From positions 1 through 64,000 of the forward strand of contig CACOGA010000002.1 in the NCBI GenBank assembly GCA_902626585.1: a stretch of DNA of 64,000 nucleotides, read 5' to 3'. The DNA is from an uncultured Bacteroidota bacterium. GTDB lineage: Bacteria; Bacteroidota; Bacteroidia; Flavobacteriales; Flavobacteriaceae. Position numbers and translations under genes: made by a program. Shown here piece after piece: positions 2,482 to 24,372 of this stretch. Position 1 is the stretch's first letter. Each line of letters opens with the position of its first letter. Below the pieces are notes generated by a model, which was not told the origin of the DNA, did not search any database, and saw only the letters and a list, made by a program, of their open reading frames with translations.

Positions 2482-2511
2482 TTGAAAACAAAGTTAAATT
2501 AGTTATTTTTG
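2482..2511 (+). promoter_or_regulatory. Bacteroidota-type promoter of the DUF6913 gene
   Basis: A -33 TTG (2482-2484) and a -7 TATTTTTG (2504-2511, consensus TAnnTTTG) are separated by 19 bases, the usual spacing for this phylum's primary sigma factor. The -7 runs directly into TTTAAC. The start codon follows at 2529, so the leader is very short. Confidence 0.65.
2489..2496 (-). promoter_or_regulatory. -7 promoter element for the split 5'-nucleotidase operon
   Basis: On the minus strand this reads TAACTTTG, matching TAnnTTTG, 8 bases before the ATG at 2480. It lies inside the divergent DUF6913 promoter (2482-2511), so the two promoters probably compete. No convincing -33 element was found. 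Confidence 0.45.
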
Positions 2512-2528
2512 TTTAACTACATTCAAAT

Positions 2529-3050
2529 ATGTTTATAAAATTCTTTAAAAATAGATCTAATAAAAAGTTTATAAATAAAGCACTAGAAAATAGGTTGCCC
2601 TCTGTAGATACTGGCATAATCCAAACAGTGGGTATAATACTAAATATTGGTGAATTTAAAGATTATGATAAGCTTAGAGATATTTTTAAAAATTATGGTA
2701 TTAATGAAAATAAAGTCAAGTTTATAGCATTTCTTTCTGAAAATGATACAAAATTAAATCACTGGGATTCTTATTTTGAATCTAAGGATTTTGGCTGGAA
2801 TGGGCTAATAAATAATCTAGATCTGCAAGAATTTATCGATATGAAATTTGATGCCTTAGTAAGTTATTATAAAAAAGATAACCTAGAACTTAATTATGCA
2901 ACTGCATGTTCTAAAGCAAATTTCAAGATTGGAATTTCTAATTACAACCAAAAGTTGAATGATATAATTATCGATATTAACCCGAATTTCATTGATATTT
3001 TTGGCAAAGAATTAGAAAAATATTTAACAGGTTTAAAGAAGATTGGCTAA
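2529..3050 (+). CDS. DUF6913 family protein of unknown function
   Basis: 173 residues, soluble, with no signal peptide or membrane segment. It resembles the flavobacterial DUF6913 family, often found next to bamD; this is recognition from the overall sequence and neighbourhood, not from a catalytic motif. Features include a basic N-terminus (KFFKNRSNKK), a central LNIGEF strand, and a C-terminal half with NYATACSKANFKIGIS and IDINPNF. There are no invariant residues from which to infer chemistry. It has its own promoter, divergent from the 5'-nucleotidase operon, and precedes bamD by 51 bases. Confidence 0.7.
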   Translation: MFIKFFKNRSNKKFINKALENRLPSVDTGIIQTVGIILNIGEFKDYDKLRDIFKNYGINENKVKFIAFLSENDTKLNHWDSYFESKDFGWNGLINNLDLQEFIDMKFDALVSYYKKDNLELNYATACSKANFKIGISNYNQKLNDIIIDINPNFIDIFGKELEKYLTGLKKIG

Positions 3051-8015: not shown

Positions 8016-8032
8016 TATATTTGTTTAACAAA
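8016..8032 (+). promoter_or_regulatory. fabI promoter -7 element with palindromic initiation region
   Basis: TATATTTG at 8016-8023 matches TAnnTTTG. Its last bases begin a near-palindrome TTTGTTTAACAAA (8020-8032), a block also present in the glyA promoter and partly in the DUF6913 promoter. ATG follows at 8043. The nearest upstream TTG is only 14 bases away, so no good -33 element was seen. Confidence 0.5.
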
Positions 8033-8042
8033 AAAATTAATT

Positions 8043-8858
8043 ATGTCAAATAATTTACTAAAAGGAAAGAGAGGAATTATTTTTGGTGCTTTAGATTCTA
8101 ATTCAATTGCTTGGATCACTGCAGAACGTGTTTTTGAAGAAGGTGGGACATTTGTTCTTACAAATGCCCCGGTAGCTATGCGAATGGGTCAAATTAACGA
8201 ACTAGCAGAGAAAACAAATTCTACCGTGATTCCTGCGGATGCTACATCACTTGAAGATTTAGAAAATTTGGTAATTAAGTCAATGGAAGTTCTAGGCGGA
8301 AAATTAGATTTTATTCTTCATTCCATAGGCATGTCGGTAAATGTTAGGAAAGGAAAATTATATACTGACCAAAATTATGATTGGACTCACAAAGGATTAG
8401 ATGTTTCTGCGATGTCCTTTCATAAGGTTATGCAAACTTTATATAAAAACGATGCAATGAACGAGTGGGGTAGTATCGTCGCTCTTTCCTACATGGCTGC
8501 TCAGAGAGTTTTTCCGGATTATAACGATATGGCTGATAACAAAGCTTTCCTTGAGAGCGTAGCCAGAAGTTTTGGATACTTCTTTGGAAAAGATAAAAAG
8601 GTTAGAGTAAATACAATTTCCCAATCACCAACTCCAACAACAGCTGGAAAAGGGGTAAAAGGATTTGACGGGTTTATAAAATACGCTGATAAAATGTCAC
8701 CGCTCGGCAATGCAACTGCTATGGATTGTGCCAATTATACAATTACTCTGTTTAGTGACTTAACTAAAAGAGTAACTCTTCAAAATCTTTATAATGATGG
8801 TGGATTCAGTAATATGGGTGTTAGCGACAGCATTATGGATATAATTGATAAGTCTTAA
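8043..8858 (+). CDS. fabI: Enoyl-[acyl-carrier-protein] reductase (NADH), FabI type
   Basis: 271 residues. FabI performs the last reduction of each fatty-acid elongation cycle. As in FabI, the nucleotide-binding region is a variant of the SDR motif (IIFGALDSNSIAW rather than TGxxxGIG). The catalytic Tyr-x6-Lys is visible as YNDMADNK, preceded by SYMAAQRVFPDY. LHSIGMSVN, VRVNTISQSPTPTTAG and NLYNDGGFSNMGVS are typical of the Bacteroidota enzyme. It is transcribed from its own promoter after recN. No terminator is visible after it; the 134-base gap downstream holds repeats. Confidence 0.92.
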   Translation: MSNNLLKGKRGIIFGALDSNSIAWITAERVFEEGGTFVLTNAPVAMRMGQINELAEKTNSTVIPADATSLEDLENLVIKSMEVLGGKLDFILHSIGMSVNVRKGKLYTDQNYDWTHKGLDVSAMSFHKVMQTLYKNDAMNEWGSIVALSYMAAQRVFPDYNDMADNKAFLESVARSFGYFFGKDKKVRVNTISQSPTPTTAGKGVKGFDGFIKYADKMSPLGNATAMDCANYTITLFSDLTKRVTLQNLYNDGGFSNMGVSDSIMDIIDKS

Positions 8859-21835: not shown

Positions 21836-22996
21836 TTATTTGAAAGATTTATAGATAATATTCTTCATCTTTCTCTTAATATTTTCCGAATTGTTAAATA
21901 TTAAAACTTCGTCTGGAGGAAACGGTAAAAATCTGTTTTTTGACAACTTAGCTTCATCTTTTGTTAACACTCTTTTATCTCCATCATACTCAAGAAATCT
22001 ATTTCTAAACCAAAATTCGCTTTCTAGAGGAAATCTATCCACAATATTTTTTTTCTGATCCAGAAATCTAATTTCTGCAATAACTTTTGCAGATTTTGAT
22101 TGTATTGATTCAATGGTTTTAACTGAAATTTTAATAATCTTATCTACTTTAATATCATTACCTAAACTATCTTTCATAACATTACCGTCTTCATCTAATT
22201 GGTAGGTTAAACCATCAATTATATTTTTTTCTTTATTCTCCTCTTTTTGGACTAGTCTTTCGGGTGAAATAATAAACGATTTAAAGGCTAAATCAATATA
22301 AAAGTCATATTTACCTTTGTATGAATCATTTTTTGTGTAAAATGATTGCCATTTGGAATTCAAATCATAACCGTTAATATTTAAAATATCATTTTCTAAA
22401 TCTTTGAATAGTACAGATTTTGATTCGTTAAGCACAGTCAAAAGTATATTATCCCTTCCCTTTAAAAGGCATAATTCAATTAGAAACCTTGTATTTTGAT
22501 AATTGGGATTTATGCCCTCGATTGTTGTTAAATAATTATATGCCTTACGATAATCAAATTTATTATCATTGGAAATTAGAGAATTTGATATTTTGAGGTA
22601 GTAATCTGATGTCTTGTATCTAAAGTTTATTAATTCTGAACTATAATCTTCAAAATTGAAATTTAATCTTTCGCTGGAAATATTTTTTAGCTTTTCTTGT
22701 CTTTTCACCAACTTTTCATATTCAAAATATATATCATCTAAAAACTCAGGATTACCATCCTTTTCAAATCTGGATATTTTATCCCTTGAATTTATAACAG
22801 ATCTATCATAAATATCAGTTAAGATTAATTCGTATTGATTTTTTTTCTTCTTATTTTTTGTCTTTTTTAATTCAGAAATAGTCTTATCAATAGCCTTATC
22901 AAATTCACCAGAAATAACATTGTTATTTATTTTTTTTATAGGACTACAGCCAAAACTCATTAATAAAATTGATGATATTAAAATTCTCTTAATCAT
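21836..22996 (-). CDS. Lipoprotein of unknown function
   Basis: 386 residues with a lipobox (LLMSFGC, Cys near residue 17). The N-terminal third is rich in Lys, charged and helical (GEFDKAIDKTISELKKTKNKKKKNQ split over adjacent helices), suggestive of tetratricopeptide-like or coiled-coil repeats. The C-terminal region is mixed alpha/beta with IIKISVKTIESIQSKSAK and ending PPDEVLIFNNSENIKRK. No catalytic motif was recognised. Similar lipoproteins occur next to smpB in other flavobacteria, by my recollection. It is divergent from glyA and upstream of smpB. Confidence 0.7.
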   Translation of the reverse strand: MIKRILISSILLMSFGCSPIKKINNNVISGEFDKAIDKTISELKKTKNKKKKNQYELILTDIYDRSVINSRDKISRFEKDGNPEFLDDIYFEYEKLVKRQEKLKNISSERLNFNFEDYSSELINFRYKTSDYYLKISNSLISNDNKFDYRKAYNYLTTIEGINPNYQNTRFLIELCLLKGRDNILLTVLNESKSVLFKDLENDILNINGYDLNSKWQSFYTKNDSYKGKYDFYIDLAFKSFIISPERLVQKEENKEKNIIDGLTYQLDEDGNVMKDSLGNDIKVDKIIKISVKTIESIQSKSAKVIAEIRFLDQKKNIVDRFPLESEFWFRNRFLEYDGDKRVLTKDEAKLSKNRFLPFPPDEVLIFNNSENIKRKMKNIIYKSFK

Positions 22997-23067
22997 AGCT
23001 GTTAATTAGTTATTAATAAGTAATATATTAATCTAGTTAATTCTGATATTTTTTTTTTCCAATTGTT

Positions 23068-23086
23068 TAATTTTGTTTAACAAAAT
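23068..23086 (+). promoter_or_regulatory. glyA promoter -7 element with overlapping perfect palindrome
   Basis: TAATTTTG (23068-23075) matches TAnnTTTG and overlaps a perfect inverted repeat ATTTTGTT-t-AACAAAAT (23070-23086) that covers the expected transcription start. ATG follows at 23098. The block TTTGTTTAACAAA is shared with the fabI promoter. A CTG at 22-base spacing is the nearest thing to a -33 element. Confidence 0.55.
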
Positions 23087-23097
23087 ATATTACAAAT

Positions 23098-24372
23098 ATG
23101 CAAAAAGATAAGGAGATATTTGATTTAATTGATGCTGAAAAGAATCGTCAAATTGAAGGAATAGAACTTATAGCTTCGGAAAATTTCACTAGTAATCAGG
23201 TAATGAACGCTACAGGATCAATCCTTACCAATAAATATGCAGAGGGGTATCCCGGAAAAAGATATTATGGAGGTTGTCAAATAGTTGATGAAATAGAAAG
23301 CCTTGCTATAGCAAGAGCTAAAGAATTATTTGGTGCTTGTTGGGCAAATGTGCAACCACACTCTGGTAGTCAGGCTAATTCAGCTGTCTTTTTTGCCTGT
23401 TTAACACCCGGTGATACTATACTGGGCTTTGATCTAGCTCACGGAGGTCATTTAACCCACGGATCCAGTGTGAATTTTTCAGGAAAATTATATAACCCTG
23501 TTTTTTATGGCGTGGATGAAGAATCAGGCATGCTTGATTATGACAAAATTGAAAGTATAGCAAAAAAAGAACAACCAAAGATGATTATTGCTGGTGCATC
23601 TGCTTATTCCAGAGATATTGATTTCAAGAGATTCAGAGAGATTGCGGATTCTGTCAATGCTTTATTACTCGCTGATATTTCTCATCCATCAGGTTTGATA
23701 GCAAAAGGAATTCTCAATGATCCCATTCCTCATTGTCATATTGTTACCACAACAACACACAAGACCCTAAGAGGGCCAAGAGGAGGTTTAATTTTAATGG
23801 GACAAGATTTTGATAATCCATTTGGTATTAAACTAAAAAGCGGAAAATTAAAGAAAATGTCTTCATTATTAGATTCAGCGATATTTCCGGGAAATCAAGG
23901 TGGGCCATTAGAACATGTTATTGCTGCAAAAGCCGTAGCTTTTGGTGAAGCACTTTCGGAAGATTTCCTCTATTATATGATTCAGGTTAAGAAAAATGCA
24001 CAATTAATGTCAGAAGAATTCATTAAAAGAGATTATAAAATAATTTCAGGTGGAACAGACAACCATATGATGCTTATAGACTTAAGAAATAAAAATATTA
24101 CGGGAAAAGATGCTGAGGCTGTTTTAGGTAAAGCTGAGATTACAGTTAATAAAAATATGGTTCCTTTTGATGATAAATCTCCTTTTGTGACATCTGGAAT
24201 CAGGATTGGAACAGCTGCTGTTACAACAAGGGGTTTAAAAGAGGAAGATATGCTAAAAATTGTTGATTTTATTGATCAAGCGATAAACAGTAAGGATGAT
24301 GATGAGTCTTTGAATAGAATTGCCTCTGATGTCAAGAGTTTTATGGGTCACAGGCCTTTATTTAAAAACTAA
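23098..24372 (+). CDS. glyA: Serine hydroxymethyltransferase
   Basis: 424 residues. GlyA interconverts serine and glycine with tetrahydrofolate, the main source of one-carbon units. Motifs: [42 protein letters not shown], and the PLP-lysine in [15 protein letters not shown]. The C-terminal domain has [15 protein letters not shown]. Length and motif order are standard. Its promoter carries a palindrome. The last bases overlap the stop codon of the beta-helix lipoprotein on the other strand (CTAA, 24369-24372). Confidence 0.97.

Follow-up and report, generated by a model that had tools for sequence, protein, structure and literature searches.

A sequence block shared by the glyA, fabI and DUF6913 promoters of a flavobacterial genome, compared among its congeners

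Housekeeping promoters of the Bacteroidota carry a −7 element whose consensus is given as TANNTTTGY in the available excerpts of two publications (PMC12632263, PMC8748976). The available part of a study of F. johnsoniae places many transcription starts 4 or 5 nt past the −7 box and describes the −33 motif as much less evident (PMC6847099); similar excerpts report that starts in B. thetaiotaomicron are 45% A and 41% G (PMC7366714), and that Flavobacterium psychrophilum has variants around TAnnTTTG together with a related TAnnTTGY motif (PMC9723704). The three sites described here, upstream of glyA, fabI and a DUF6913 gene, resemble the housekeeping (sigma-A/sigma-ABfr) promoter in having TAnnTTTG and a pyrimidine shortly before the start codon, and the genome itself has Flavobacteriaceae and Bacteroidetes records as its best named relatives. 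Palindromic repressor operators that overlap the start site are a general kind of regulatory element. The glyA site resembles these in having symmetric, A+T-rich arms where transcription would start, and is unlike them in that its exact form is not kept in congeners and has one full copy in the genome.

The stretch of DNA analysed (64,000 nt, here called the window) belongs to a 1.49-Mb assembly of 35 contigs with a completeness of 87%. Eighty named loci were used, solely to name relatives; the best of these by GlyA, both labelled MAG and both, presumably, marine, are a record of an uncultured Bacteroidetes at 84% identity and one of Flavobacteriaceae at 82%. We consider it very likely that the glyA, fabI and DUF6913 sites are ordinary Bacteroidota housekeeping promoters, probably without a separate element; the comparison of orthologous promoters is the decisive test.

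Three promoters with a common block

The 10-mer TTTGTTTAAC occurs in the window at 2508, 8020 and 23072, each time on the + strand, and has no other copy there on either strand. Each copy completes a TAnnTTTG box (beginning at 2504, 8016 and 23068), which bears out the claim of the first-pass annotation that three promoters share a block. Since the window holds three copies only, the remaining TAnnTTTG boxes named in that annotation (glmM, pheT, dnaN and HK) lack the block, as it had stated, and its gene names, glyA (SHMT), fabI-like enoyl-ACP reductase and DUF6913, hold up. The features are as follows.

2504..2511, + strand: −7 box of the DUF6913 gene, TATTTTTG, kept in 10/10 congeners
2512..2517, + strand: TTTAAC, putative start region of the DUF6913 gene, with TTTTAA at the same six places in 10 congeners
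2529..3050, + strand: DUF6913 protein, 173 aa
8016..8023, + strand: fabI promoter −7 box, TATATTTG, with TTTG in 8/13 congeners and TTTA in 5/13
8024..8029, + strand: TTTAAC, putative start region of fabI, kept in 2/13 congeners
8043..8858, + strand: fabI-like enoyl-ACP reductase, 271 aa, with FabI as the best NCBIfam models, under their equivalog cut-offs
23068..23075, + strand: glyA promoter −7 box, TAATTTTG, its six fixed letters kept in 15/15 congeners
23076..23081, + strand: TTTAAC, putative start region of glyA (−4 to +2), spaced by analogy with F. johnsoniae (available part of PMC6847099)
23070..23086, no strand: 17-base palindrome ATTTTGTTtAACAAAAT, perfectly symmetric at glyA, with AACAAAAT as its right arm
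23098..24372, + strand: glyA, serine hydroxymethyltransferase, 424 aa

Divergent from glyA lies a gene for a 386-aa protein (21836-22996, − strand), for which searches of Pfam and NCBIfam gave no match at E 0.001.

Three copies of TTTGTTTAAC compare with 0.64 expected from shuffles, and three were reached in 1 of 100 shuffles. In this window of 30% G+C, 5,941 of the 98,218 distinct 10-mers are present at least three times (both strands counted), so that the threefold occurrence is unremarkable alone and its significance modest. TAnnTTTG per se shows no enrichment there, with 102 sites vs 113.7 expected.

The ATG lies 17 nt from the G of TTTG at the DUF6913 gene, 19 nt at fabI and 22 nt at glyA. 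T directly follows TTTG at all three genes, in agreement with TANNTTTGY. Judged by eye against the −33 element, DUF6913 has a clear TTG 19 nt before the TA, fabI has a TTG 14 nt before it, and glyA has none at the usual distance. No feature outside the Bacteroidota housekeeping promoter family was seen at the three sites.

Because many starts in F. johnsoniae lie 4-5 nt past the box and those in B. thetaiotaomicron are mostly A or G, TTTAAC would span about −4 to +2. The +1 of glyA is then probably A 23080, and the leaders would measure ~18 nt (glyA), ~15 nt (fabI) and ~13 nt (DUF6913). In the mechanism that we propose, a holoenzyme with what would be the housekeeping sigma recognizes TAnnTTTG (−12 to −5), transcription would begin 4-5 nt past the box, and the six letters that follow it (−4 to +2) would comprise the discriminator and the start site. 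This region would be loosely constrained, with a pyrimidine mostly at −4, little G and an A near the start, and TTTAAC would be one fitting solution in a 30% G+C genome.

Constraint on the start region and its drift among congeners

The sequence context of TAnnTTTG boxes was compared in a 464-kb sample from the own genome and in 400 kb from three congeners. Promoter counts from these samples are approximate, because the gene-calling script was a basic one (ATG, 80 aa, with the longest taken first). A pyrimidine directly follows TTTG in 39/49 own promoter boxes vs 191/609 genic boxes (Fisher P ~4e-11) and, in the congeners, in 35/40 vs 198/552 (Fisher P ~1e-10), or 80-88% at promoters and 31-36% within genes; other intergenic boxes share part of this preference (49/81 own, 43/79 congeners). 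At the fourth place after TTTG the commonest base is A, with 53-57% at promoters vs 32-33% in genic boxes.

The exact hexamer TTTAAC follows 4/49 own promoter boxes, where column shuffles give 0.32 (P 0.0002), and the probability of any hexamer being that common is 0.0036; the test is not independent, as three of the four were picks of the first-pass annotation and the sample includes the window. Scaled to the ~157 promoters of the own genome, the four compare with 0.17, 0.65 or 1.04 expected, depending on the column frequencies chosen (P <0.0001, 0.0045 and 0.0218, respectively). TTTAAC follows none of the 690 non-promoter boxes of the own sample. In the congener sample it follows TAnnTTTG at 0/40 promoters, with 0.04 expected; since the expectation is that low, this result leaves room for a mild preference for TTTAAC, which the own species may have.

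For the comparison of orthologous promoters, 16 of the 31 glyA matches were counted (own and 15 congeners, all within the genus; twelve more, L027-L038, belong to other families), along with 14 of the 19 fabI matches, the five set aside being weak ones (paralogues, 22-25% identity). Eleven of 13 DUF6913 orthologues and 12 of 14 carA orthologues were counted, own included in both, the others (L151 and L152; L187 and L188) having no readable start; 11 weak carA matches out of 25 were excluded. The genus genomes are incomplete, so that those with no match, 3/18 congeners for glyA and 6/21, 8/21 and 4/21 genomes for fabI, DUF6913 and carA, are uninformative. Hexamers were aligned without gaps, and the single extra T at DUF6913 is therefore scored as a change.

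Congeners retain the −7 box but not the block. At glyA the six fixed −7 letters stand in 15/15 congeners and TTTAAC in 0/15, its place being taken by TCTTGT, TTTTAC, TAATTA, TACTTA and others. DUF6913 has the box in 10/10 and TTTAAC in 0/10 (TTTTAA, with the extra T, in all ten). At fabI the TTTG box stands in 8/13 and TTTAAC in 2/13, with CTTAAT, CTAAAC, CTAAAA and others elsewhere. At carA, a fourth promoter with the block that lies outside the window, the box is kept in 11/11, TTTAAC in 3/11 and TCTAAC in 7. Identity to the own sequence over the six fixed −7 letters is 100% for glyA, 94% for fabI and 100% for both DUF6913 and carA; over the start hexamer it is 39%, 62%, 67% and 85%, respectively. 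A kept TTTAAC element at glyA, fabI and DUF6913 is thus contradicted by the sequences of the relatives. In this little-studied flavobacterial genus, the −7 box and the next pyrimidine are constrained, whereas the other letters of the start region drift. In five congeners (L130-L134), TATATTTA or TATCTTTA replaces TAnnTTTG ahead of fabI, and the otherwise-kept G of the −7 box is therefore lost there.

These data bear on a second reading, that TTTAAC (or YYTAAY) is a preferred initiator, strong or metabolite-sensing, of a subset of biosynthetic promoters, responding for instance to nucleotide pools at carA. In its favour are the contrast of 4/49 with 0/690 in the own genome, T[CT]TAAC in 10/11 of the carA promoters counted, and a congener (L171) with TTTAAC before a pyrE-like gene; the congener sample (0/40) and the poor retention at glyA, fabI and DUF6913 speak against it, as does the carA upstream region, which by eye is well kept throughout, so that its start region is not singled out. 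We regard this reading as very unlikely. An initiator defined by the exact hexamer was tested by column shuffles, with an excess in the own stretches and 0/40 in those of congeners, and was not adopted. The first-pass annotation had offered a common initiator as one possibility; what stands of it is the placement of the block in the putative −4 to +2 region, the pyrimidine after TTTG and the common A that follows, but the exact TTTAAC is kept in too few orthologues (carA included, at 3/11) for the remainder.

Copies of the block across the genus and at carA

Across the whole own genome TTTGTTTAAC has 10 copies and its reversed control 24. Open frames of at least 80 codons contain six of the ten, on one strand or the other, and the other four stand behind TAnnTTTG ahead of carA, DUF6913, fabI and glyA. 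The 14-mer TAnnTTTGTTTAAC likewise has four copies in the own genome, every one at a promoter, the fourth being that of carA (own locus L001, C1:10900-13909). Over 21 genus genomes it occurs 24 times vs 36 for the reversed control, with 4 vs 2 in the own genome. Of its 20 copies in congeners, seven sit 8-42 nt upstream of a gene starting with ATG (carA in three, fabI in two, a gyrA-like gene in one and the pyrE-like gene of L171, named by reading its protein only, in one). Two more precede the TTG starts of a truA-like and a phosphoesterase-like gene. Another six are found 12-13 codons from the 3' end of an ORF, which overlaps or adjoins a gene resembling a nucleotidyltransferase; one is inside an ORF and four are antisense to open frames. 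The block was to fail, by the first-pass annotation, if it were as frequent in genes or away from starts. The outcome of this check is mixed. Seen behind the box it is a promoter feature (4/49 own promoter boxes, 0/609 genic and 0/81 other intergenic), but open frames, read in sense or antisense, hold 6/10 own copies of the bare 10-mer and 11/20 congener copies of the 14-mer.

More than the other three genes, carA retains a related start region, with T[CT]TAAC in 10/11 congeners counted. That T[CT]TAAC at carA, with TTTAAC at the pyrE of one congener, is a nucleotide-pool-sensitive initiator kept in the genus and since shared by glyA, fabI and DUF6913 of the own species seems to us very unlikely; if true, it would mean shared start-site control over one-carbon, lipid and pyrimidine genes.

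Just upstream of most carA promoters a likely terminator, a GGAG-loop-CTCC hairpin followed by a T run, was seen by eye (L001, L178-L190). Two genes upstream of carA, an ORF (L001:2289-2939, − strand) that we take to be ribosomal protein L17 has a long repeat tail at its end (EEAPAEEAPA). In six congeners (L154, L158, L160, L163, L164 and L165), TATATTTGTTTAACCC is kept close to the 3' end of an ORF, encoding the peptide YLFNPNA, 31-34 nt ahead of the ATG of a nucleotidyltransferase-like gene; either coding constraint or an embedded promoter could account for this.

The palindrome at glyA

The palindromes are as the first-pass annotation described them, ATTTTGTTtAACAAAAT at glyA with 17 bases and TTTGTTTAACAAA at 8020 (fabI) with 13. 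The window holds 6 inverted repeats whose 8-bp arms flank a 1-nt loop, where 20 shuffles average 3.95, and 21 with loops of 0-4 nt, where the shuffles average 20.15. When the 101 nt upstream of glyA were shuffled, an 8-bp-arm, 1-nt-loop repeat appeared in 29/2000 cases, and one with loops of 0-4 nt in 152/2000. As a T-rich promoter precedes an A-rich leader there, the glyA palindrome is most likely a by-product of chance.

The full glyA palindrome is unique as an exact match in the own genome, where near-palindromes (up to 2 mismatches) number 20 vs 12 for the reversed control. Exact sites of its 13-base core TTTGTTNAACAAA are two in the own genome (glyA and fabI) vs 0 in the control, and over the 21 genus genomes they are 11 vs 11. 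At glyA the exact palindrome occurs in 0/15 congeners, among them two whose GlyA is 91% identical; the core occurs at fabI in 2/13, and the palindrome in 0/10 at DUF6913 and nowhere at carA. A looser ATTTTG/CAAAAT repeat with 6-7 nt between its arms remains at glyA in 3/15 congeners, which is unremarkable, because inverted repeats with arms of at least 6 occur in 7/49 own promoters, glyA among them.

On these counts depends the reading of TTTGTTTAACAAA as an operator, at which a dimeric regulator bound over the start site would repress glyA and fabI. The perfect symmetry at both genes, a position over about −10 to +7 that would block initiation, the restriction of exact TTTGTTNAACAAA in the own genome to these two sites and the looser repeat in three congeners all suit it, but a full palindrome borne by glyA alone, its loss even from close relatives, the retention of the core at fabI in 2/13 only and the parity with the control across the genus make it extremely unlikely. 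This reading, which the first-pass annotation had put forward as an operator for one-carbon and lipid genes, was dropped after the orthologous-promoter comparison and the genome-wide palindrome search; no new regulator is indicated, and a promoter palindrome in AT-rich DNA calls for a comparison of relatives before it is named an operator.

Two further candidates were rejected. An RNA hairpin would require both arms, and a start at 23080, as proposed above, would leave the first arm untranscribed and the second alone in the RNA. For a divergent minus-strand promoter within the palindrome, TATATTTTG is one base too long for TAnnTTTG, and the box scan of the window found no minus-strand TAnnTTTG inside it.

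Ordinary housekeeping promoters thus remain the reading that we prefer for all three sites. Other stretches around glyA are kept better than TTTAAC: CAATTGnTTAATTTTG, in the upstream region 23052-23075, stands in 12/15 congeners, and in 15/15 the ATG is immediately preceded by TACAAAT (23091-23100).
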